Source: Nitrospiraceae bacterium (GTDB lineage: Bacteria; Nitrospirota; Nitrospiria; Nitrospirales; Nitrospiraceae). From it: DNA of 64,000 nucleotides. The position numbers were made by a program, and so were the translations under genes. Of this stretch, positions 45,736-61,116 are shown piece after piece. Position 1 is the first letter of the stretch; each line of letters opens with the position of its first letter. The stretch is from NCBI GenBank assembly GCA_035623075.1, contig DASPUC010000057.1:1-64000 (forward strand), read 5' to 3'. The notes beneath the pieces were generated by a model. The model was not told where the DNA came from. It saw only the letters and a list, made by a program, of their open reading frames with translations, and searched no databases.

Positions 45736-47109
45736 TTACCGCCCGAAGAGAATGTCGGTTGTGATCTGAGCGTCGAGGGAAGGGTCAGTAGTGACGACGT
45801 AGGTAGCCTGTTCCTGCACACCGGTTGGTCCGCCGGGTGTGATGGATTCAACGAGTTGATTCGAAGAAAATCTGCCTGCTGAATCTGCTTCCTCGGTTCG
45901 AGCCTCCTGCACTGATTTCCGAGATAACCGAATCGTGAGTGTGGTGGTTTCGCCTTGCGTGAGCGCAGGAAGGGGAATCTCATGTCGTGTGCCGGCTGTG
46001 ATTCGCAAGGAAGACTCGCCGCCGCTGTGCGGATAGAAGACTTGAGCGGGGGCACTGCCGACGGTCTTGAGGATCTGAAGATAGGCGTCCTGGTTGGGTT
46101 CGACAGTGAGACGCGTTGACTCCGTCCCTTTCGACGCAATTGCCGTATCGACCTCTCGATCTTGTCCATCGGTTCCACGGACGACGAAACTGTAACGTAA
46201 TCCAAGCGGCATGAATTGTGCGATCTTGCCCACGGCCGCGAACCGGTCTCGCTTCCGTTCCGGTCGATTGGCTTGGGGCGCTGACTCTGAAAAGGCTTTC
46301 AGGTTTTGATTCTTTTCAGAAGTGCCAGCCCTCTGATCCAAACGTGCCGCTTGACCAGCGTAGAAGAGTGCGCGGGCGCTGGTTGTCGAGGCACCAGCTG
46401 CAGGAGGGGCGATGCCTGCTGGGGCTTCCATTTTCGCCGGTTCCGGAGATTCGGCTGCTGGCGCAGAACTCTGCCTGGACAGCTTCTGGTCGGCCGAGGC
46501 TGGCACTTCCTCTGTTGCCTTGCCTGGCGATACCGTCGGGGCTTCAGATGAGTTGGGCGCTTCCTGTTGTTTGGACCGTTGTGTGACCTGGTACCGCGCC
46601 AGGCCTGAAGCCTGCCGTTCTTGGAGCGGAGGTAGCGTGGCCGCACGCTCTCTCTTGGCAGTGTGTTCAGGCTGTGCATCTTTCTTCGCCTTGAGCTCGA
46701 TCTTGTCATCGGCCGGTTGCGACGGTGGAGCAATGGGCTTCTCCTTTTCGGTCACAACCGAGTTCGCTGATTGCTTAAGGCTGTCCTGATAGATCTTGGT
46801 ACCAAGGACGACGGCGAAGACAGCAGCGACAAGGCCTCCTGCGAAGGCAAGGCCGGCCGGTCGCTTGAACCAATCGAACCAAGAGAATGCCTCGCCTGCG
46901 GCCGAAGGGATGGGTTGCTTCAACGATTGCAACAGTTTGCGGCGCACGGTTGGATCGGCCAGCAATTCCTTCAGGGTCTGTTCGTCGGCCAGGGCGTTGA
47001 ACAATTGTTGGTCTTGCAAGGCAGCGGAATAGAGCAGCTGACGTTCCTCAGCCGTCAGCGTATCTGCCGCGAAGCCGCCCAACAGTTTTTCCAGTTTGTG
47101 TTCAGACAT
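45736..47109 (-). CDS. Anti-sigma-factor-like membrane protein with DUF4384 domain
   Basis: A 457-residue protein downstream of an ECF sigma gene. The N-terminal 75 residues resemble an anti-sigma domain (EKLLGGFAADTLTAEERQLL). One membrane helix follows (GLAFAGGLVAAVFAVVLG, about 88-106), then a long Ala/Pro/Glu-rich linker, and a C-terminal beta-domain (TVEPNQDAYLQILKT ... GTRHEIPLP) of the DUF4384 type. The helix places the DUF4384 domain in the periplasm as a possible sensor. The N-terminal part has no HxxxCxxC zinc motif, so it would not be a ZAS-type anti-sigma factor. Confidence 0.72.
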   Translation of the reverse strand: MSEHKLEKLLGGFAADTLTAEERQLLYSAALQDQQLFNALADEQTLKELLADPTVRRKLLQSLKQPIPSAAGEAFSWFDWFKRPAGLAFAGGLVAAVFAVVLGTKIYQDSLKQSANSVVTEKEKPIAPPSQPADDKIELKAKKDAQPEHTAKRERAATLPPLQERQASGLARYQVTQRSKQQEAPNSSEAPTVSPGKATEEVPASADQKLSRQSSAPAAESPEPAKMEAPAGIAPPAAGASTTSARALFYAGQAARLDQRAGTSEKNQNLKAFSESAPQANRPERKRDRFAAVGKIAQFMPLGLRYSFVVRGTDGQDREVDTAIASKGTESTRLTVEPNQDAYLQILKTVGSAPAQVFYPHSGGESSLRITAGTRHEIPLPALTQGETTTLTIRLSRKSVQEARTEEADSAGRFSSNQLVESITPGGPTGVQEQATYVVTTDPSLDAQITTDILFGR

Positions 47110-47119
47110 TCTCTTTGTC

Positions 47120-47179
47120 GCTCGTCGTTCGTGAAACGTATCTCGTGAAGCGCTGACTACTCAGCAGTCAGCACTCAGA
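47120..47179. repeat. Heptamer-type repeat island upstream of the anti-sigma gene
   Basis: Two runs with 7-bp spacing: cgttcgtgaaacgtatctcgtgaag and gctgactactcagcagtcagcactcag. It sits between the ECF sigma gene and its partner and could influence their spacing or transcript stability. Arms are more degenerate than in lhr. Confidence 0.45.
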
Positions 47180-47189
47180 TCTTCCCATC

Positions 47190-47693
47190 TCACTCCCATG
47201 AGCCACCCATCAGACTGAGCAGCTGCCTTCTGCATCGCAGATCCCAGGTATATATCGTATTCACGGAGCTCTGGCCCATCAGCTTCTGAATCTCCGGGAA
47301 ACTTCTGCCTTCCAGCTTCCATTTGAACAGTTCACGACAGCGTTCGCCGAGCTGACTCATCGTCTGAAGCAACCGCTCGACCGTCTGCTTACGTTCCAGT
47401 TGCCGGGCCGGATCGTCGCCGGGATCGGCCAATGGGATCGCCTCAACTGATTCCTGATTATACTCGCCTCGGCGGAGTGACTTGCGGTGAGCGTCCAGCA
47501 TTTTGAACCGGAGGACCTGGAAAGCGAGAGGAACCAGATCGGTCAGTTCGACCACATGGGAGTATTTCTCATGCAGAACCGCGAGCACCTCTTGCGTGAC
47601 ATCTTCCGCGTGGTCCCTTGATACTCGTGATGTCGCGAACGCCAGAATCCTTTCGCGCAAGCTGGCGAGAATCTGGTCACGATCCATTTTCAC
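47190..47693 (-). CDS. ECF-type RNA polymerase sigma factor
   Basis: A 167-residue sigma-70-like factor with region 2 (SRDHAEDVTQEVLAVLHEKY) and region 4 (MSQLGERCRELFKWKLEGRSFPEIQKLMGQSSVNTIYTW). The fused anti-sigma-like gene follows about 80 bp downstream. The start directly abuts the stop of the amidohydrolase gene, so the three genes are probably cotranscribed. The regulon cannot be predicted. Confidence 0.9.
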   Translation of the reverse strand: MKMDRDQILASLRERILAFATSRVSRDHAEDVTQEVLAVLHEKYSHVVELTDLVPLAFQVLRFKMLDAHRKSLRRGEYNQESVEAIPLADPGDDPARQLERKQTVERLLQTMSQLGERCRELFKWKLEGRSFPEIQKLMGQSSVNTIYTWDLRCRRQLLSLMGGSWE

Positions 47694-48767: not shown

Positions 48768-49358
48768 CTAACTCGGGAGTATTAAACAGACCAAGTACAA
48801 CCAATAGGTGACCAGTTGGCATATGGCGTAAGTCGCCTGCTTGTAATAAAGCCGAGCCGTCCGTCGATACGGATCGAGGTAATTGTTCGTCTTGGCAGTC
48901 TGTTCAGACCGTTGCATCAGCACTGAGGGGGTGGCGTCTTTGATAGCATGAATAGCTTCGGCAAGGATCTCTTCCGGCACACTATTTTCCCAGCTTCCAG
49001 GTTCTCCTCGGTCTGCCTCTGCCTTCCATTGCAATGACTGCGCGTGCAGATTACGAAAGATATGTAAGTCGATCCCAACACGAAGTGCAAGGTATTGTTG
49101 CAGGATCGCAAAGAGGAAAGAAGCGGACATGAATCCTATTGTCGGCAACCAAAAGGAGGGCGGATGTGGAGAGTTAGGATTCATCGGTTTGAAGATGACT
49201 GTCGCGACAGCAGTCACGGCCGTTAAGGCTAAGGTGCCGGTGCTGAGGCGATTAATGTGGATTCCGCTTTCAAATAGCGCCAAGAACGAACCTCTTGCTA
49301 TCTCCCCACAGGTGTATTCTCGAGTCCGTTGGACCGAGGGAATAGAGGCTGGACTCAT
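48768..49358 (-). CDS. Small membrane protein, last gene of the ynbABCD-like operon
   Basis: A 196-residue protein with about three hydrophobic segments (LALTAVTAVATVIF, FWLPTIGFMSASFLFAILQQYLAL, ICQLVTYWLYLVCLI). Between the second and third is a soluble helical part. It starts 4 bp inside the stop of the phosphatase gene, so translation is probably coupled. I do not recognise a family; its place suggests a partner or regulator of the lipid enzymes. Confidence 0.65.
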   Translation of the reverse strand: MSPASIPSVQRTREYTCGEIARGSFLALFESGIHINRLSTGTLALTAVTAVATVIFKPMNPNSPHPPSFWLPTIGFMSASFLFAILQQYLALRVGIDLHIFRNLHAQSLQWKAEADRGEPGSWENSVPEEILAEAIHAIKDATPSVLMQRSEQTAKTNNYLDPYRRTARLYYKQATYAICQLVTYWLYLVCLILPS

Positions 49359-50746
49359 GACGCCATCCGCCTTATATCCGGTGAAGGGCTGACGATGTGT
49401 CGATACTGTTCAAGCGCCATCCGTTGTTGGCTCGATAAAACGATCTGGGGACGCGCTCGGCGAATTATGTGTTCGGCGGCGGGAATGCTATGCGCATGTC
49501 CCTCGGCCAAAAGGTAGGCGGCGATCACCGCCGCGCTGCGGGAGTAGCCAAGAGCACAGTGTACTAATACAGGGCCTTTGCGAATCTGCTCGCGGATGAA
49601 GGTGACTGCGTGATCCAAATCATTTGCAGAGACTGGCGTCAAGTCCATAATCTGAATATTGCAGTATGGTAGCTTCAGAAAAGGCGTTGCTTCATCAAAT
49701 TCCGCGGTCAGATCGACAACTGCGCTCACACTTGCCCTGACGGCGAGCTTGGCCTCGGAATCAGTCAACTTCCTTCCGATCCAAAGCCCGGGAATCACCT
49801 GATCGTAGGGACTAGTGTTTTTGGTATAGAGCCGATACGACAGGTACGAGCCCAGAAGAAATGGCGCGAGCGCAAGGCGACTGCAGAGGCTGAGATGTCC
49901 CTCGAATTTCAGGAAAACTGCGGTGCCAGTCGCAGTATAAGCGACAGCAATCAGTCCGAGAGCAGCTGCGGGCCAGAGGAGAAAATGAAGAGGTTGCCAG
50001 TAGAGCCAAGCGAGTCCGAATAGCGCGGCGAACCCGCTCGCATAGTACAGTATCAGATCGTGCCTGAAGACGGAGGGAGTCGTCACGATTGTCGTGAGAC
50101 GGCTTCTCATGAAGGTTCCCCTAGCCTGATCCGGAAACATATAGTACGTAAACATGGCAACTGTGACGCCGGTGTAGAGATCAATGATGTGATGTTGGAA
50201 TGTCAGAACTGTTGAGACTCCGATGAGTGCGCACCAAATATGTATAAGTCGCCTGAGCCAGCCTCTTGTATGTTTTGCATAGACCATCCATTGGATGATT
50301 AACAAGCTGATATGGAGCGAAGGGGCTTGGTTGAACGGTTGATCGAATGACGTCAGAAATTTGAATATAGAGCCGAGGAGACCGTCTACTGGAGGGCGAG
50401 GAAAGGCGAAGCGCAAGGGAAACAGGAGAAACCCGGCAGTCGATATGCATATGGCGAGGGTAAATCGGAACGCTAGCGTGCGTAGTTCCTCGCGTGTCCG
50501 GCACAGGAATAATGCTCCCGCCAACATCATGTCGGTGGACATGTATGGGATGATCATCAAGGGAACAAACGGAATGTACTGTTCCCACTCAAAGTAGTAG
50601 CTGCCCACCTCCGGGCGGAGCGATGTGAACCAATTTGATGTGCCATACATCAGGAAAAAGAACGGTCCGAGAAACAGCAGCCAGAGAAAGGCTGTGTGAA
50701 GCGGACGCGTTTCCGTCGAACTGTTCTCCGTCATGTGCCAGAACAC
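49355..50746 (-). CDS. PAP2-type membrane phosphatase fused to dual-specificity phosphatase (YnbD-like)
   Basis: The 463-residue protein joins an N-terminal polytopic PAP2-like domain (PSLHISLL, then HHIIDLYTGV) to a C-terminal cytoplasmic dual-specificity phosphatase with the Cys-loop HCALGYSRS. This domain pair is that of E. coli YnbD. The PAP2 part may dephosphorylate lipid phosphates; the second domain acts on phospho-protein, phosphatidylglycerophosphate-like or inositol-like substrates, but which is unknown. It overlaps the end of the hydrolase-methyltransferase gene by 16 bp. Confidence 0.85.
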   Translation of the reverse strand: MFWHMTENSSTETRPLHTAFLWLLFLGPFFFLMYGTSNWFTSLRPEVGSYYFEWEQYIPFVPLMIIPYMSTDMMLAGALFLCRTREELRTLAFRFTLAICISTAGFLLFPLRFAFPRPPVDGLLGSIFKFLTSFDQPFNQAPSLHISLLIIQWMVYAKHTRGWLRRLIHIWCALIGVSTVLTFQHHIIDLYTGVTVAMFTYYMFPDQARGTFMRSRLTTIVTTPSVFRHDLILYYASGFAALFGLAWLYWQPLHFLLWPAAALGLIAVAYTATGTAVFLKFEGHLSLCSRLALAPFLLGSYLSYRLYTKNTSPYDQVIPGLWIGRKLTDSEAKLAVRASVSAVVDLTAEFDEATPFLKLPYCNIQIMDLTPVSANDLDHAVTFIREQIRKGPVLVHCALGYSRSAAVIAAYLLAEGHAHSIPAAEHIIRRARPQIVLSSQQRMALEQYRHIVSPSPDIRRMAS

Positions 50747-52509
50747 TTCCGTGCCAGTGAGACGGTAAAAATCCCGAAATCGTCGATTTCCATGGATAGC
50801 TTCTCGAATCCCGCCGCTCGGACCAGATCATCCATTTCTTCCTGTGTGCGCCGTCGCATAACCCATGGCTGCTTGTCTCGGTTGACCAGCACCCGCGCGA
50901 TCATTTCGACCTGGGGGTGCCATGGTTGGTTCGTGTAGATCAAGTAACCGCCCGGTTCAATAACGCTGGACAGGCCCTTAAGCGATTTCATGATCAAATT
51001 GTTGTCAGAAAATAATTTATACAAACCGGACACGATGGCGATATGGGGGCGTGGCGACAACGTCGCCAAGGAGTGCTGGTCAAACGCGTCTCCTTCCTCA
51101 TATCGGACGGTACAAATGCCCAGTTGTTCAGCCAGTTGACGTCCGACGGCGAGACCATTGGCCGATCGATCTCGCAGCAAGGCAGTGAAGTGGATGTCAG
51201 CATGTGCCCGTATTGTATCGAGCAAGTAGCGGCCGGGCCCCGAAGCAATGTCCACAATGTGGATCGCTTTGCCGGATTGAGCCAACTTCTGGATCGCTAC
51301 ATGCAGAGTGTGCTCAAGATGTACCTTGCGCTGGCGAATTCCTCTCCATCCGATGCTATCCAAATAAAGGCGATCGAAGAGGCGGCCGAGAGGAGTCAGT
51401 CCATGGGCTTGATTCTGGTAGACATAGTTCAGAGACTCTCCAGAGTCAAAACCTGTCTGCCACCCGATGCGGACTCCTTCGCTCAGCCGGCCTATTGTCT
51501 GCATGACAAGCTTCTGAACGACAAAATTCCAATGGCGCGGCGAGAGGATAGACAAAGGCTTGGAGAGCTCCTCATATTCTGTCCGCGTGTAAGAACTGCG
51601 GTGAGCGGCAACCAGTGGTTCACGGTGACGACGTGTTTCAAAAGCTTTCTCGAGGAATTCTCGAGTTTTCGAGAATGGGATGTGGCGGTCCGTTTCATGG
51701 AAGACATCATGGTAGAAGCCAGGGAGAGGACAAATTTCCTTCACCGCTGAAGAAAGGCGACCGAAGAATTGTCTTTGCACGCCTTGCTCAACGACCCAAT
51801 CGGAACCGGCGACGAATACCAGCGTAGGAGTACGAATGGCTCCGGCATCAGCCACGATCCGTGTCGACGCGTCTCGGAGGCCAAGGAGAATATTTACGGC
51901 GATGCCCCGCTCGATAAGAGGATCCTCGGCGTATCGACGGGCCTGCTCCTCGTCGTGCGTCAAAAGCCTGGCTTTAACATAGCTTTTAACGAAGCACTTC
52001 CCGCGCACCCACTGCAAAAGACGAGGCGCGGGGATGGCAAAAGGTATGTACAGCTTGACTCGGAAGGCGGGGACCGCCAGGACCATGGCTCGGATAGGTG
52101 GGGCATAATCATGGACCCATGCAGCGACTATCACACTCCCCACGCTTTGGGCTACAACACCGATGTTTTCGATAGGAACTCGATAGGATTCGCTAATGTG
52201 TCCTACAAAACTATCGGCATCTTTAACGAGGCAGGAAAAGTCCGGCGCGTAACCTCGTTCGCCTGGTGAACGGCCGTGACCTCGGGCGTCCTATGCAAAG
52301 ATTGCAGTGTTGGCCAGAGCAAGATGTTCCGCTAATTCTTGAAAACGGCCGGAGTGTTCGTGGCCGCGGTGAAAGAGGACCACTGCCTGTTTGGGCGGGG
52401 TACCAGGTAGCCAAGCACGATAGAACAACTTCGTCCCATCCCACGTGGTCATCCAATGGTCAGTGGGTTCGAACGTATGAGGCGTCTGCTCTGCCAGGTT
52501 GGACTTCAT
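50731..52509 (-). pseudogene. Bifunctional alpha/beta-hydrolase / SAM methyltransferase (YnbC-like), interrupted by an amber codon
   Basis: A single reading frame of about 592 codons would give an N-terminal alpha/beta-hydrolase and a C-terminal class I methyltransferase (DIASGPGRY), the layout of E. coli YnbC. One TAG at 52291-52293 splits it. Upstream the frame gives a 72-residue start ending in ANTAIFA; directly after the stop the same frame resumes DARGHGRSPGERGY, and the nucleophile follows in VVAQSVGS. Family members read F-x-W-D-x-R-G-H-G here, so the TAG most simply replaces a TGG Trp codon. Either the gene is inactive, the base is an error, or the stop is read through. A GTG near 52143 would start a headless hydrolase. 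Confidence 0.85.
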
Positions 52510-52570
52510 TCTCGATACCTCCTTTGGTGCGTGTTAAGTCTCATGCTCAGCGGCTCGCGTGAGGTCAGTT

Positions 52571-53203
52571 CTACTCCCACGCAGGGATATGGCCTTCGTT
52601 CGCTAGGGCTTTGATCGACTGTTCGAGCTCCGACATGAAGCCTTGGCGATCACCAGTCCATCGTAGCGGTGGCGCGACGAAAACGTCGCAAAAGAATGGA
52701 ACGAGAACAGCCTCTCCTTTAGGTAGTACCTTTCCGAGGCCATGAAGGAAGATCGGCGTAATCGGAATATCTGGATGGCGTTTAGCCAGGTGGGCAACGC
52801 CGGTCTTGAATGAGCCCATTTGTTCAGGTGTTCCTCGCGACCCTTCAGGAAAAAGGATCAAGATTTCCCCGTTTCGAAGGGCATCGGAAGAGGAGGTCAA
52901 TGGGTCCACATGCTTGTCTGTACTTTGCCGCTCTAATGGGATGATGTGCATGATCTTCACGGCAAACCAAGCAAGCAGCGGATCGCTGAAAAAGTAATCT
53001 CTTGCTGCGACCGGGCGGATTGAGCCCAGCATACCCCATGGCAAAAGAGTCATGAGGACAAGCGTATCCAGGTGGCTGTTGTGGTTGGAGACAATGATAG
53101 CCGGTCCTTCTTGCGGGAGCCGTTCACGGTGGCGCACGTTCAAACCGAGCACGATAAGTACCAATGGGCGAACGAATAAGAGAAAAAAGAGTTGTTGAAG
53201 CAC
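52571..53203 (-). CDS. 1-acyl-sn-glycerol-3-phosphate acyltransferase-like protein (PlsC family)
   Basis: A 210-residue acyltransferase with the catalytic HxxxxD box in NHNSHLD (His41-Asp46) and the FPEGSRGTPEQ acyl-acceptor motif near residue 120. An N-terminal hydrophobic helix anchors it. It sits between the CdsA-like and YnbC-like genes, 10 bp after the former, and would supply phosphatidate or remodel a lysolipid for the pathway. Enterobacterial ynb operons have no acyltransferase at this place, as far as I recall. Confidence 0.87.
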   Translation of the reverse strand: MLQQLFFLLFVRPLVLIVLGLNVRHRERLPQEGPAIIVSNHNSHLDTLVLMTLLPWGMLGSIRPVAARDYFFSDPLLAWFAVKIMHIIPLERQSTDKHVDPLTSSSDALRNGEILILFPEGSRGTPEQMGSFKTGVAHLAKRHPDIPITPIFLHGLGKVLPKGEAVLVPFFCDVFVAPPLRWTGDRQGFMSELEQSIKALANEGHIPAWE

Positions 53204-53212
53204 AAAGACTCC

Positions 53213-54151
53213 TCAGTAATGCAGGTAGTAGACATAATGAAAGAATAACGGCGCGGTGTACGTTAAGCTGTCGATTCGGTCAAGAATCCCGCCGTGTCCG
53301 GGGAGAAGGCTTCCGCTATCCTTCACGCCAAGATCTCGTTTGAGAGCTGAGATTGTCACGTCGCCGATGAAACCGCTGCAACCGATGAGCAGTCCGGCAA
53401 GTGCTGACTCCACGAGACTCAGTGGCGTCAGGTACGAGGCCAGGAGCGAGGCCAGGGAGACAGTAGTCGCCAGGCCGCCGATGAATCCTTCCCACGTCTT
53501 GTTTGGGCTGACCTTGGGAATGATTTTATGGCGTCCCGTGAGCTTCCCCCACACGTACTGAGCCACATCATTAAACTGCGTGAGAAAGACGAGGAAGAGA
53601 ACGAGCCCTGCGCCACCGGCCGTCGGGTTTCGATCCTCGGGAAGAACCAGGAGAAACGCGGCATGACTCACGCTGAACACCGTCGTCATGAGCCCCCAAT
53701 GTACGGTGCCGGCGGCGCGCAGAAACTCCTTTGTTTCACCGATGATCACCATACGCATCGGCAGCAGTAAGAACAGATATACCGGAATGAAGATAATAAA
53801 CATGCCATACCAATCCATATGCACCCATAGATACTGAATTGGGATGGCGGCATAGGCCCAGAACAGCACGCGGCGGTCCGCTCGACGTGTCGGAATCAGC
53901 GAGAGATATTCTTTCAGTGCGAGGAAACTCACAAAGGCAAAAAAGATGATGGATGTGCTGCGGCTCAGGAGGATTGCTGCCGCAAAGATTCCGATCATGA
54001 CCCACCAGGAATAAACCCGCTGCGTCAACTCAAGATAGGCGTTTTCAGGATGGAGTCGTTTCAGAATGACAGTGATCGTTGAAGCGACTATCAGGATGCC
54101 GATGATGCCACTGAGCGCCCACATGACCGGAGGTTGAAGGTGTGCGAACAT
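53213..54151 (-). CDS. Phosphatidate cytidylyltransferase-like protein (CdsA/YnbB-like)
   Basis: With the ATG at 54151, preceded by GGGGAGG and overlapping the upstream stop as TGATG, the protein has 312 residues and about eight helices. The CTP-transferase motif SPNKTWEGFIGG and the C-terminal signature GDVTISALKRDLGVKDSG followed by GGILDRIDSL are both present. It makes CDP-diacylglycerol or an analogue, which the upstream CDP-alcohol transferase would use. A longer frame starting at 54238 is inside the upstream gene. Confidence 0.88.
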   Translation of the reverse strand: MFAHLQPPVMWALSGIIGILIVASTITVILKRLHPENAYLELTQRVYSWWVMIGIFAAAILLSRSTSIIFFAFVSFLALKEYLSLIPTRRADRRVLFWAYAAIPIQYLWVHMDWYGMFIIFIPVYLFLLLPMRMVIIGETKEFLRAAGTVHWGLMTTVFSVSHAAFLLVLPEDRNPTAGGAGLVLFLVFLTQFNDVAQYVWGKLTGRHKIIPKVSPNKTWEGFIGGLATTVSLASLLASYLTPLSLVESALAGLLIGCSGFIGDVTISALKRDLGVKDSGSLLPGHGGILDRIDSLTYTAPLFFHYVYYLHY

Positions 54152-54756
54152 CAAGACACCTCCCCGAGAGCCTGACGAGCGCGATTGACGATCGTGACAA
54201 TAGAAAGCAGCGCTCCCAGGCCCAACAGAACTGTGCACCAGAAGCCAGGTTCGACACCAAGACCCAGCAGCAGCGCGATGAGCCCGAACAGAAAGGCCCG
54301 GTCGCTTTTCCCAATCGGACCGGCATAATTACGCGAGGCACCGATCTGGACAGCAACCACGCCGGTCATTTCCACGATGATGCCCAGCACGACAACGCCT
54401 ACGACCAGCCAGGGATCGAGGCCTGTACCCAGGGCCAAGGGAAGATAGAGGACCGCATCAGAAATCACGTCGCCCAACTCGTTGAGGATGGCACCAAGGC
54501 GGCTCTTCATACCGTGCTCACGCGCCAGCATCCCGTCGATCGCGTTCAACGCCATTCTGACAAACAATGTGAGTGGAACAAGCAGGAGTAGCGTATGGCG
54601 ATGCGGAGACCAGACAATGATTCCCCCCACGAGACAGGACAGCGCTAGCGCGGCCAGAGTGACTTGGTTCGCCGTGACGTGCCCCGCGGCGAGTCCGCGG
54701 GTCAACGGACGCAGAACATTCTGGAAAGCTGGTTTGAGCTGGTAGATGCTCGGCAT
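54151..54756 (-). CDS. CDP-alcohol phosphatidyltransferase (YnbA-like)
   Basis: A 201-residue membrane enzyme (from the ATG at 54756) with the full CDP-alcohol signature: DGMLAREHGMKSRLGAILNELGD, then D five residues later. It condenses a CDP-lipid with an alcohol or phosphoalcohol; the alcohol is unknown. Upstream ATGs at 54807 and 54828 are alternatives. It is the first gene of the YnbABCD-like operon; the lipid acyltransferase gene upstream ends about 100 bp before it. Confidence 0.87.
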   Translation of the reverse strand: MPSIYQLKPAFQNVLRPLTRGLAAGHVTANQVTLAALALSCLVGGIIVWSPHRHTLLLLVPLTLFVRMALNAIDGMLAREHGMKSRLGAILNELGDVISDAVLYLPLALGTGLDPWLVVGVVVLGIIVEMTGVVAVQIGASRNYAGPIGKSDRAFLFGLIALLLGLGVEPGFWCTVLLGLGALLSIVTIVNRARQALGEVS

Positions 54757-54861
54757 GGGTATATGAGCATTCCTATATTTGTGAATGAACCTAACATGTT
54801 GCGCCATGATTCCAAGCCAAAAGTACATTTTGTCGAACGGTCGCTAGGCGGTCAGGAGCGG

Positions 54862-57800
54862 TCAGTGATTTGCGAGACGTTCCATCGCAATCTGCTTGAG
54901 CTTGCGCAAATCCATCTTGCCGGTGCCGAGTATCGGCAAGGCGTCTACTCTAAGGAAGTTTCCACGGGGAGGGATGAAGAGGTTGGGAAGTCCGTTTAGG
55001 GCGAGTTTGCCGAGGATATCTGGAATGCGTGCTTCGTCGAGGGTGTGGAGGACGGCAAGTTGTTCCCCTTTTCGTTCGTCTGGAACACCGGTGACGGCAA
55101 AGGCCTGCATGTCGGCCCCGGCGGCTTGCTGCAGGGCTTCCTCGACGGTGCCGTGGGGAACCATTTCGCCGCCGATTTTGGAAAAGCGAGATAGCCGATC
55201 GGTGATGCTGAGAAAGCCGTCGTCGTCCAGCATGGCAATGTCGCCGGTGATGTACCAGCCATCGTGCATGGCCTTGGCTGTGAGATCCTCGCGCCCCAGG
55301 TAGCCGTTCATGACATTGGGACCTCGGACGAGCAACATACCGGGCGAGCCGGGCGGCAACGGGGTGAAGCTGTCCGGATCGACGATCTGGACCGAGACGC
55401 CGGGGAGCGGCTGTCCCACGGTGCCGCGCCGCGACGCCGGTTGATAGTATCCGGCTGCGCGATAGTCCGGGCAGTTGACGGCAATCACGGGAGCGCATTC
55501 GGTCACCCCGTAGCCCTCAACCGGCTCGATTCCAAACTGGTCTTGAAACCCCTGAGCGACTCTCGCCGGAAGCTTCTCCGCACCTGTGATGACGATGCGA
55601 AGCGAACTAAATTGTTCCGGTGTACATCGGCGCTGATAGAGTTGGAGAAAGGTCGGTGTGGTCACAAGAAAAGTGACCTGATAACGGCGCACCAGTTCGC
55701 CGATTGCGGCGACGTCGAGCGGCGACGGATGGAAAACGATGCCGACCCGGTGACTGCACACGAGCCAAAAGACCAGATAGCCGAAAGAATGAAAGAATGG
55801 AAGGATGCCGAGGACACGATCCGTGCAAAACAGATGAAGCACCTGCGATGCAGCCCGCTGATTCGAGTCGACGCTGAAGTGAGACAGCATGACACCCTTC
55901 GGTTCCCCGGTGCTGCCGCTGCTAAAGATGATCGTCGCGAGATCATCCATTGTCAGTGGGGTCGTTTGGCCACAGGCCCATTCGATGATTCGTGCCGGAG
56001 CACAGAGTGCCAATAGGGCGGCGACAAACTTCTGTCCCGCACCGATGGTCTTGCCCAGATCTTCAAGCCAAATAATCGCTGGTCCATCCGGCAGTTCCAG
56101 CTTGGCCTTTTCCACAAACGTCCGGCTCGTCACGATGGTGCGGAGGCTGGCGAGCCGCACGGCCGCCTCGAGACCGGATTTCCCGACCGTGTAGTTCAGA
56201 TTGACGCTGGTTCTCCCGCAGAGTGGAGCGGCCACGTTTACCAATGCTCCTGCAACGGTGGGAGGGAGGAGGAGGCCGACGTGACGTTGGTCCAGCCAAT
56301 AGGGCCGAAGAGCTCTTGCGAGGGCGATGGACCCGATGAGGGCTTGCAGTGAAGACACCTGTGGGCGAGTGTGGTCCGCCATGGCGAATCGAAATGGCTG
56401 CCGTCGCATTGAACGGATGAACTGCCGGTGCAGGGGCCTGCAGTCTCGTTTTCGTAGAGCCCATGCTGCCTCGCCGAGCGCACGAATCGCCTGTCGCAGT
56501 TCGGCCGCTGAAGTTTCCGGCGGAAGGGGTGCGCCGAAGGACACGGTCACGGGATAGGGAATCTGCTCAGGCCACTTCCAGAGAAATCGGCCTCGCTCGA
56601 AGCTAAAGAGGCTTCCCCAGAGACGATCCAAATGAACGGGGATGACCGGCGCCGACTTGCCTTTCATGATGCGCTCGAACCCGCGCCGGAATGGCAATAA
56701 AGTTCCCGTTCGGGTGATCTGCCCTTCCGGGAAGATGCAAACGACCTCACCTTTGTCAATCGCGGTTCCGGCGTCACGGAGTGCGCGCAAGATCACGCGC
56801 AGTCCCTCATGCGAGGATATCGAGATCACTCGGAGCATCTTCATGAAGGGTTTGAGCAGGGGATGCTCGGCATATTGGGCGTCGACCACGAATCGCACCG
56901 GGCGATCCAGGCTTGCGATCAACAGAAAACCATCGATGAATGAGACGTGATTCGGCACCAGCAGCGCGCCACCGGACTTCGGAATATGTTCCTCTCCCAC
57001 GATCCGCAAGCGATAGACCGAGTTCGTTGCGAGCACCAAGAGCACTCGCAGGAGGGCATCCGGCAGCAGTCGAAGGGCCCAGGCGGTCCCGGCCAGAGTG
57101 ACGAGTGCCGTCGTGGCAAAAATACCGGTGGTCGACAGGCCCGCACTTGCCAGGGCGCCGGCGCTTAAGGAGCCAAAGAGAATTCCGGTAAAGACGCAGA
57201 TGTTTTCAAAGGCGATGACGGAGCCTCGCCGCTCGACCGGTGCCCGCCACTGGATAAGCGCGTTCAGCGGGACGAAGATCAGGGCACTCGCCATGCCCAA
57301 CACGACCATGAGGATCAGGGTCCCGGTCAACTGGGGTGACCCCAAACCGAGGGAAAGCAACATGGCTGCCACGCCGATGGCGCCCAACGGGATCAGGCCG
57401 TACTCGACTCGCGATTGTGAGAGCCAGCCGACGAGTCGTGCGCCGATGCCGATCCCGATCGACAGCAGCATGAGCGGCAAACCTGATTGCCAGTCGGAGA
57501 CATTCAACACGGCCTTGGCATAGACAAGGATGTTTTGCGCGAAGAGGCTGGCGATGGTCCAGAAGAAGACCGCGCCTATGACGGCCAGGCGCAGCAGGCG
57601 ATCCGCGGCGAGCGCTGACCATGCTCCATGCAACGTATCGAGAAGGCCGCCTTCGGTTCGTGCCGGGGGAACATGCGGAATTGTCCAGGCGGCGGTGAAG
57701 CCCACGAACGAAAGAATGACGAGCGTCAACGGAGCGAGCCACAATGAGGAACCCGTGACGGAGAGCAAGACGCCTGGCGCGGCGGTCCCCGTCAGGATTG

Positions 57801-58299
57801 CGAGAAAAGTCCACATCTCCAAGCGACCATTGCCTTCAGCCAATCGTTCATGTGTGAGTAGCTCGGCGAGAATCCCATACTTAGCGGGACTGAAGAGTGC
57901 GCTGTGGACACCCATACCCCCAAGGACAATCAACGGCAAGACACCGCCGGCTGGATTGATCCAGAGCGCGATGGTAGCCGCGATCATCAAGAGAACTTCT
58001 ACCGACTTCATCATGATGATGACGGTGCGTTTGCTGACGCGATCGGCCAGCACGCCGGCCACGATGGAAACCAATGCGAGAGGAAGTGTAAAGACGACGA
58101 AGGCCAAGGTTGTGTGGGTCTGTGAGGCCGTCTCGAAGTCAGAACCGGGAGCCATGGTGGCAGCCAATTGTCTGATGCCCAGCAAAGCCACCATCAACTT
58201 CCACGCGTTGTCGTTAAACGCGCCGCAAAACTGGGCGATCAACAGGCCACGAAGAGGATGCGAGTTGGAGCGAGCTTGGGGATCAGTTGAAGCTGTCAT
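54862..58299 (-). CDS. LplT-Aas fusion: lysophospholipid transporter, acyltransferase and acyl-ACP synthetase
   Basis: A 1145-residue, three-part protein. Residues 1 to about 415 are an MFS carrier like LplT (lysophospholipid flippase). About 430-640 is a PlsC acyltransferase (NHVSFIDG, FPEGQITRTG). About 650-1145 is an AMP-forming acyl-ACP synthetase with SSGSTGEPKGVMLSH, YGVTECAP and a C-terminal lid. Together they import lysophosphatidylethanolamine and re-acylate it. In E. coli these are the separate lplT and aas genes. It lies upstream of the YnbA-like gene on the same strand and fits the lipid theme of the block. Confidence 0.92.
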   Translation of the reverse strand: MTASTDPQARSNSHPLRGLLIAQFCGAFNDNAWKLMVALLGIRQLAATMAPGSDFETASQTHTTLAFVVFTLPLALVSIVAGVLADRVSKRTVIIMMKSVEVLLMIAATIALWINPAGGVLPLIVLGGMGVHSALFSPAKYGILAELLTHERLAEGNGRLEMWTFLAILTGTAAPGVLLSVTGSSLWLAPLTLVILSFVGFTAAWTIPHVPPARTEGGLLDTLHGAWSALAADRLLRLAVIGAVFFWTIASLFAQNILVYAKAVLNVSDWQSGLPLMLLSIGIGIGARLVGWLSQSRVEYGLIPLGAIGVAAMLLSLGLGSPQLTGTLILMVVLGMASALIFVPLNALIQWRAPVERRGSVIAFENICVFTGILFGSLSAGALASAGLSTTGIFATTALVTLAGTAWALRLLPDALLRVLLVLATNSVYRLRIVGEEHIPKSGGALLVPNHVSFIDGFLLIASLDRPVRFVVDAQYAEHPLLKPFMKMLRVISISSHEGLRVILRALRDAGTAIDKGEVVCIFPEGQITRTGTLLPFRRGFERIMKGKSAPVIPVHLDRLWGSLFSFERGRFLWKWPEQIPYPVTVSFGAPLPPETSAAELRQAIRALGEAAWALRKRDCRPLHRQFIRSMRRQPFRFAMADHTRPQVSSLQALIGSIALARALRPYWLDQRHVGLLLPPTVAGALVNVAAPLCGRTSVNLNYTVGKSGLEAAVRLASLRTIVTSRTFVEKAKLELPDGPAIIWLEDLGKTIGAGQKFVAALLALCAPARIIEWACGQTTPLTMDDLATIIFSSGSTGEPKGVMLSHFSVDSNQRAASQVLHLFCTDRVLGILPFFHSFGYLVFWLVCSHRVGIVFHPSPLDVAAIGELVRRYQVTFLVTTPTFLQLYQRRCTPEQFSSLRIVITGAEKLPARVAQGFQDQFGIEPVEGYGVTECAPVIAVNCPDYRAAGYYQPASRRGTVGQPLPGVSVQIVDPDSFTPLPPGSPGMLLVRGPNVMNGYLGREDLTAKAMHDGWYITGDIAMLDDDGFLSITDRLSRFSKIGGEMVPHGTVEEALQQAAGADMQAFAVTGVPDERKGEQLAVLHTLDEARIPDILGKLALNGLPNLFIPPRGNFLRVDALPILGTGKMDLRKLKQIAMERLANH

Positions 58300-58308
58300 G
58301 CGTAGGTC

Positions 58309-60186
58309 TTAGTGTGCCTCATTTGGGGATGTCGAGGGAATAGGCAGACCTTCCAGTGCCATAATCCGGAGCGCATTCGTCGTCGGGCAAGGGCCGGGGC
58401 GTAGCTTGTAATCGAACTCGAGCGCGCCGGCGACGACCGTTTCCCTGAAGTGGCTGTTGGTCAGGTGCGGTACCGTCTTGTCCAGGTCGGTGAGTTCGAG
58501 GTCGTGGGTCGTGACGAGACCTAGCCCGTTCCCTGTCGCAAGAGACTGGATAAACGCGCGGCTCCCGATCAAGCGCTCGCGGTTGTTCGTCCCTTTGAAA
58601 ATTTCATCGATGAGGAACAGGAGTGGAGGCGCCGCGCCGTTGTGTGTTGCGTCGAGAATCGACTTGAGCCGTTTGACCTCCGCATAGAAGAACGAGAGTC
58701 CTGCCTCCAGCGAATCGTCCACCCGGATGCAACAGGCTACGCGACTCCAGGTCCACTCAAAGCGGCTCGCACACACGGGTCCGCCGGCCTGGGCCAGGCA
58801 GAGGTTAATTCCCAGCGTTCTGAGGAACGTGCTCTTCCCAGACATGTTCGAGCCGGTGATGAGCTGCATATGGCCGATGCCACGGAGCGCAAACTCATTC
58901 GTCACCCTTCGCCCAGCAGGAATGAGAGGATGGCCGAGGGCCTCTGCGGTCATTGTTGCTTCTGCTCCATTTCCGGCCGATGCAATTGCTTGCGGAGTCG
59001 GCCAGGCATAGGTCGGATGGAGGTCGGCAAAGGTAGCAAGTGCTGCAGCTGCCTCGACTTCGGCCAGTCGATCCAGCCAAGTCGGAAGGAGTGAGCTGAC
59101 TCGTTTTTGAATCTGTTGCAATTGTTTCATCCACCACAGATCCCAAGGACAGAGTGCGTTGACCAGCAGGTGCACAAGAGGATGAGCTTTGACACTGACC
59201 GCGTGGAGGGTTCGCGCCGCACGCCGAACAAGCTTCGGTGGATTCGCTGTGTCGGAGAGTAAAGGCATCCAGACACTTGCGAGTGCCGAGCCGTGACGAT
59301 GCGCATACCGTTCCACATACGCCAGCACAGTACCGAATTTCTCAAGTTCGTGGTGTAACCCGACCGCGTGCTCCAACAGTTCCTCTCCTTGATCGGTCTG
59401 CAGATAGATGAGGGCATAAATGGCAAAGGACCAGAGCGAGTACCCCGGGAGCCATCCAAGCAAGGCACTGAGACCAAGAGTGATGGTGGTGGCGGCCAGA
59501 AGAGTTTGGACCGCCAAGATCGCAGTCAGGTGAGGGATTCCTATATGGTGCTGGAGCACGGCTTCGAGACGGCGTCCGTTGATTTCCTCTTCACCGACAA
59601 GCCGGGCCTCGAGCACCAGTCGATCTCGGAGTAAGGACTGGGCCGTGAGCTCTCGAATCAATCGGCGCCGAGGAGTCCACTGGTCGAGCGAGGGTGGCTG
59701 GTTCAGCAACCAGCTTTCAAGTCTGGCCTGTCCATTGGATGAGACCGTGGTGTCGATCAAATGCAGCAACGAGTGGTTTCCGACCAGATCCAAATCCTTG
59801 GCATATAGGTGGTGTGCTGGCGCAACCGAGGTTCGTGCCGGGATGTCGTCCCAGTTCAAAAGCAGACGCGCGCGGTGCTGAAGCTTGATCTGTTTCCACA
59901 GGCGGAGCCGATGAATCCGCTGTTCGAGCCTGTTATGATACGACGCGACGATCACAAAGAGACCGACAAACGCGATGAACGATCCATTGCCGGTTCGATA
60001 CCAATCCATCTTGTACAGAGTGATGGTACAGAGCAGTCCTGCGACGAAGAGGATGAAACGCCAGCGTGTGAAAATAGCGCTCGCCGCAGTACCGCGGGTT
60101 AGCAGACGGTCGATTCGTCCAATCCCGCGAGTCAGTGAGCGCTCTCTCGTCGATGGGATGTTGTCGGATTGCTCGTGGGCGGGCAT
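58309..60186 (-). CDS. MutS-related ATPase, membrane-associated type
   Basis: With the ATG at 60186 the product is 625 residues. Two hydrophobic segments near the N-terminus (FILFVAGLLCTITLY, FIAFVGLFVIVASY) and another in the middle suggest membrane association, unlike MutS1 or MutS2. The C-terminal third is the MutS ATPase domain: GSNMSGKSTFLRTLG, LIDEIFKGTNNRER and TTHDLEL. There is no mismatch-recognition, clamp or Smr domain. Such MutS-like proteins are of unknown function. It is divergent from prmA and ends about 10 bp before the lipid fusion gene. Confidence 0.85.
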   Translation of the reverse strand: MPAHEQSDNIPSTRERSLTRGIGRIDRLLTRGTAASAIFTRWRFILFVAGLLCTITLYKMDWYRTGNGSFIAFVGLFVIVASYHNRLEQRIHRLRLWKQIKLQHRARLLLNWDDIPARTSVAPAHHLYAKDLDLVGNHSLLHLIDTTVSSNGQARLESWLLNQPPSLDQWTPRRRLIRELTAQSLLRDRLVLEARLVGEEEINGRRLEAVLQHHIGIPHLTAILAVQTLLAATTITLGLSALLGWLPGYSLWSFAIYALIYLQTDQGEELLEHAVGLHHELEKFGTVLAYVERYAHRHGSALASVWMPLLSDTANPPKLVRRAARTLHAVSVKAHPLVHLLVNALCPWDLWWMKQLQQIQKRVSSLLPTWLDRLAEVEAAAALATFADLHPTYAWPTPQAIASAGNGAEATMTAEALGHPLIPAGRRVTNEFALRGIGHMQLITGSNMSGKSTFLRTLGINLCLAQAGGPVCASRFEWTWSRVACCIRVDDSLEAGLSFFYAEVKRLKSILDATHNGAAPPLLFLIDEIFKGTNNRERLIGSRAFIQSLATGNGLGLVTTHDLELTDLDKTVPHLTNSHFRETVVAGALEFDYKLRPGPCPTTNALRIMALEGLPIPSTSPNEAH

Positions 60187-60234
60187 GGCACGAACCTTAC
60201 TGGAAGGCCGACGAGCCGTCAACCGAGGTAGACC

Positions 60235-61116
60235 ATGACCGGGCAGGAATGGGTGGACGTCAGGATTCGCACCTCGATCGACGCTGCCGAGTTGCTGGCA
60301 ATGTTGGATGATCCGTCCGTGCAGGGGAGTTGGGAAGACAATGACACAGTGCATGTCTACTGGCCCAGACACAGCTGGGGGAGCGAGGTCTTCGGTCGGT
60401 TGCGACAGGTCTTGTTCGCACTCGATCCGGACAGTCGATCCGAGCAGGCCGTACAGGTCGAGCCGTTACAGACTCAAGACTGGAACCGTCGGTGGACGGA
60501 GCTGGTCAAGCCGATTCGAGTGGGGCGTCGTCTGATTATCCGGCCGAGTTGGGAGTCGGTGCAGTTGCAACCAGATGACATCGAGATTGGGCTCGATCCG
60601 AAACAGGCGTTTGGAACGGGGCACCATGCGACGACCTCTCTGTTACTAGAGTGGCTGGAAGAGATTATTGACGGCGGGGAATCGGTGCTCGATGTGGGGA
60701 CTGGGAGCGGGATCCTCGCCATGGCTGCATTGCGGTTCGGTGCTGCGAAGGCCGTGGGCATCGATTCTGATCCTGTGGCCATTGAATGTGCTCGAGGCTA
60801 TGCACAAGACAATCATTTTGGTACGGAGCTTCGGTTAGAGACGGGAGATCTCAGCAAGCAGACAACCATTCTCGTTCCGCCACCGGACATCGTCCTGGCC
60901 AATTTGGATCAGGCGACCCTCACGCTGTGCCGGGATCATCTTGCATCCTATGTTGAGCACGGGGCGCGGTTGCTTGTCTCCGGCGTCCTTGTCGATCACC
61001 AGCGGGAGCTTGTGCAAACTTTTTCAAGCGCGGGAATGTATCGCACTGAGACACGGGAACGAGAAGGATGGGTAGTGTTGGAGTTCCAGGCTGCTCAAAG
61101 TTGTGAGGGGATATGA
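60235..61116 (+). CDS. prmA: Ribosomal protein L11 methyltransferase
   Basis: This 293-residue SAM enzyme trimethylates ribosomal protein L11. The N-terminal substrate-recognition domain is followed by the family block DPKQAFGTGHHATTSLLL, SAM motif I DVGTGSGILAMAA, and the active segment PDIVLANLD. Length and order match bacterial PrmA. The next gene starts 4 bp inside its stop. Confidence 0.95.
   Translation: MTGQEWVDVRIRTSIDAAELLAMLDDPSVQGSWEDNDTVHVYWPRHSWGSEVFGRLRQVLFALDPDSRSEQAVQVEPLQTQDWNRRWTELVKPIRVGRRLIIRPSWESVQLQPDDIEIGLDPKQAFGTGHHATTSLLLEWLEEIIDGGESVLDVGTGSGILAMAALRFGAAKAVGIDSDPVAIECARGYAQDNHFGTELRLETGDLSKQTTILVPPPDIVLANLDQATLTLCRDHLASYVEHGARLLVSGVLVDHQRELVQTFSSAGMYRTETREREGWVVLEFQAAQSCEGI

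Follow-up and report, generated by a model that had tools for sequence, protein, structure and literature searches.

The window, a 64,000-nucleotide stretch of a Nitrospiraceae contig, carries on its minus strand a gene cluster with the order ynbA-ynbB-acyltransferase-ynbC-ynbD, in which every gene but ynbC is open. The ynbA-like gene (54151..54828; Pfam PF01066) encodes a CDP-alcohol phosphatidyltransferase that shares a motif with E. coli YnbA, and the ynbB-like gene (53213..54238; PF01148) encodes a CDP-diglyceride synthase; the true start probably lies downstream in the former and slightly downstream in the latter. An acyltransferase gene (52571..53203; PF01553, with an NHNSHLD motif) separates ynbB from the ynbC-like gene (50731..52509). 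The cluster closes with a ynbD-like gene for a PAP2/dual-specificity phosphatase (49355..50746; PF00782 and PF14378, with an HCALGYSR motif), whose start at 50746 overlaps the end of ynbC by 16 bp. All four neighbours are intact, as had been stated from the sequence alone; stops in their tblastn translations were dismissed as end-extension artefacts.

Translated on the minus strand, 50731-52509 yields 592 codons interrupted by a single internal stop and by no frameshift, in agreement with the earlier description of a frame of about 592 codons that is broken only by one TAG. The stop lies at plus-strand positions 52291-52293, where CTA corresponds to TAG on the minus strand, and occupies codon 73 of the frame (ANTAIFA-stop-DARGHGRSPGERG). 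The start codon is ATG (52507-52509, minus strand), preceded at a distance of 8 nt by a strong AGGAGG Shine-Dalgarno sequence (52518..52523, minus strand). A Pfam search with the frame read through the TAG matched nearly the whole profile of Hydrolase_4, an alpha/beta hydrolase domain, at residues 38-274 (E 2e-67), and of Methyltransf_20, a SAM methyltransferase domain, at residues 283-588 (E 1.5e-126). The read-through product is 49-52% identical over its full length to YnbC from E. coli, Burkholderia, and Rhizobium, and residues S122, D237, H267, G424, and G426 agree with the orthologues in the alignment. By analogy with the respective fold families, the first three are presumed to be the catalytic Ser/Asp/His of the hydrolase and the two glycines to belong to the SAM site. 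As it stands in the window, ynbC is a disrupted copy of YnbC and not a working member, with the architecture, key residues, and cluster of the family but not its open frame.

Eighty YnbC loci from many phyla, retrieved by a pattern scan of GTDB genomes, were used to assess the interrupted position. Trp occupies the codon 73 column in 80/80 of these orthologues and also in E. coli YnbC, and no in-gene stop is present in any of the 80, one of which (L092) runs off its contig end. Two search patterns had been used, one of which included the Trp itself while the other (L[FL]HRGHEH) did not; since 77/80 loci also contain the Trp-free pattern, the invariance of Trp was not produced by the search design. 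The amber codon thus does fall at a conserved Trp position that is invariant in the alignment, and the proposed one-base origin from TGG is supported. The accompanying statement that this residue is typically Trp holds for YnbC orthologues, but not for alpha/beta-hydrolases at large: the M. tuberculosis monoglyceride lipase has Leu at the aligned position, which indicates that Trp is not fixed across the wider monoglyceride-lipase family and that its invariance belongs to YnbC. That the stop falls at a Trp codon is in itself unremarkable, because 24 of the 62 single transitions that would create a stop in this gene hit Trp codons.

The remainder of the frame had been described as undamaged. 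The reading frame and catalytic residues bear this out, but two further codons depart from columns that are otherwise invariant among the 80 orthologues: codon 361 (51427..51429, minus strand) is AAC (Asn) in place of the Asp of all other orthologues (D361N), and codon 498 (51016..51018, minus strand) is AAA (Lys) where 80/80 have Glu within an SGLYELF motif (E498K). Apart from the stop, these are the sole deviations of this kind, and E498K is non-conservative; in the four cluster neighbours, for which the alignments are smaller, 0-1 unique deviations at invariant columns were found per gene. D361N and E498K weakly favor slightly relaxed constraint, and hence a real loss of function over one base-call error. 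With the stop not counted, the window ynbC deviates at 8 of 183 columns that are 90% conserved and at 2 of 132 that are 97% conserved; the same counts in 28 equally divergent intact orthologues are 1-15 and 0-6, respectively, and because the window gene lies inside both ranges, these counts do not demonstrate any decay other than the stop itself. Judged by its sequence, ynbC looks to have been functional until recently, or to be functional still if the base is wrong. Stop-making changes account for 201 of the 5328 possible single-base changes in the gene, and the presence of one stop with no frameshift would roughly cap neutral drift at a few per cent, which is a bound and not a date. The change of W73 to a stop, D361N, and E498K are each G to A on the coding strand; hypermutation was considered on the basis of this signature but is not claimed, as the argument is post hoc, involves three sites, and concerns a type of single-base change that is the most frequent one in the orthologues as well.

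A young nonsense allele that inactivates ynbC in the sequenced lineage is probably the correct account of the locus. A Trp codon would have been converted into TAG by one transition, and translation, initiating normally at 52509, should end after 72 residues, ahead of the presumed nucleophile S122 and of the entire methyltransferase. With both the hydrolase nucleophile and the methyltransferase missing, no YnbC activity would be made, and expression of the overlapping downstream ynbD may be reduced through polarity. The methyltransferase could in principle be made separately, since the open reading frame that follows the stop (470 aa from a GTG at 52143) includes the whole Methyltransf_20 domain. 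Up to codon 336, however, no in-frame start with a well-spaced Shine-Dalgarno sequence follows the stop: a GGAG lies just 1 nt before codon 126, which is too close, and a motif 12-14 nt before codon 319 serves a site that is already within the methyltransferase domain. An internally started methyltransferase is therefore unlikely, and as E498K also falls inside this domain and 0/80 orthologues are split, we regard a split gene as very improbable. Decoding of the TAG, as Trp or another residue, would yield full-length YnbC and would account for the 519 further codons of conserved sequence that follow it. Against this, none of the 43 tRNAs found by the Rfam model in the host genome (3.39 Mb, 58 contigs, 99.9% complete) has a CUA anticodon, with the proviso that the model could overlook a strongly divergent one such as tRNA-Pyl; a single tRNA, with the anticodon CCA, serves Trp. 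The genome encodes two class I release factors, one with a PVT and the other with an SPF tripeptide, which we take to mark RF1 and RF2, respectively. Its Trp/Tyr synthetase family has just two members, as expected if there is no extra orthogonal enzyme. Among 350 long ORFs in 464 kb of host sequence, TAG is a common stop (107, compared with 113 TAA and 130 TGA), and in the same sample the open sequence past TAG is not longer than that past TAA. In-frame TAG was absent from all 131 matches to three large Pfam families in the whole host genome (77 response-regulator, 43 ABC, and 11 glycosyltransferase domains), and also from the codon 73 column of the 80 orthologues. TAG is an ordinary stop in this host, and suppression or reassignment is not supported. 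Stop-codon readthrough, one of three explanations offered by the sequence-only reading, is thus contradicted, and the two checks that had been suggested for it, a search for an amber suppressor tRNA and a count of other in-frame TAGs in the genome, both went against it. We consider recoding of this kind highly unlikely, and give equally little credence to a real TAG that is read at a useful rate, with low production of full-length YnbC, in a lineage where TAG otherwise ends translation.

Mutation and sequence or assembly error, the other two explanations offered, both stay viable. Under the latter, which we rank second and consider rather unlikely, the consensus would contain a wrong base or a minority-strain variant, and the cells would keep Trp and an intact ynbC. 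This would agree with a single substitution in a gene whose frame, ribosome-binding site, and residues S122, D237, H267, G424, and G426 are intact and whose departures elsewhere are within the range of intact peers, and a genome in 58 contigs fits a draft or metagenome assembly. One wrong base nevertheless leaves D361N and E498K unexplained, and with no TAG and only one stop, a TGA in a weak partial match, among the 131 domain matches, stop errors are not frequent in the assembly. The match in question is a partial response-regulator domain (G000:C52:50846-51007) that is probably a degraded copy. A codon-usage scan for other single-stop genes had no power, as the known ynbC break fell under its threshold, and its 18 candidates were not used.

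If the nonsense allele is real, its loss of function would be of an ordinary type. The closest counterpart is E. coli YnbC (b1410, ynbABCD), which shares the two-domain architecture, 49% full-length identity, and the neighbours ynbA, ynbB, and ynbD; it differs in that the E. coli gene has Trp and an open frame whereas the window gene is interrupted at codon 73, and in that the window cluster has an extra acyltransferase, which is also present in the ynb clusters of Rhizobium and Burkholderia. Single-nonsense bacterial pseudogenes have the same one premature stop in an otherwise kept frame, and nothing distinguishes the window ynbC from these; it carries an inactivating change in a gene that is intact in relatives, as pseudogenes do. 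Systems of amber recoding (pyrrolysine, suppressor tRNAs, or TAG reassignment) share the in-frame TAG in a conserved gene, but differ from this host, which combines the lack of a detected CUA tRNA with RF1 and the use of TAG as an ordinary stop. Amber readthrough should not be illustrated with this genome, and in annotation ynbC is best called a nonsense allele or pseudogene, pending reads. If the base is real, an uncharacterised gene cluster of phospholipid type would here have undergone a natural loss. The literature found on ynbC consists of a transposon phenotype in E. coli, where the ORF was termed of unknown function (PMC2435150), and a mutation table that mentions the gene once (PMC13313352).

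Among 396 genomes from the phylum, none but that of the host gave a full-length PF12147 (Methyltransf_20) match, which identifies ynbC as an accessory gene. The distribution of the orthologues is scattered and takes in Planctomycetota, Verrucomicrobiota, Pseudomonadota, and other phyla, the closest orthologue from the GTDB scan being 59% identical; the relatives searched included no genome of the same genus. GC3 of ynbC is 0.58, compared with a mean of 0.65 (sd 0.05) in the host-genome sample. The ynb cluster is accessory and patchily distributed, and has probably been moved horizontally; loss of ynbC is therefore unsurprising and plausibly tolerable. One in-frame TAG is present in a Methyltransf_20-like match (L032; G193:C56:58355-58642) from a different genome of this phylum.

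Further genes lie on the minus strand on either side of the cluster. Positions 45736-47693 hold a Sigma-70 region 4-like gene, a weak match under the Pfam cut-off, followed by a gene for a 457-aa protein without a Pfam match. At 58309-60372 a 687-aa protein is encoded whose sole match is to MutS domain V, at the C-terminal end, and a 1145-aa protein that combines an MFS transporter, an acyltransferase, and an AMP-binding domain is encoded at 54862-58299, adjoining the ynb cluster.
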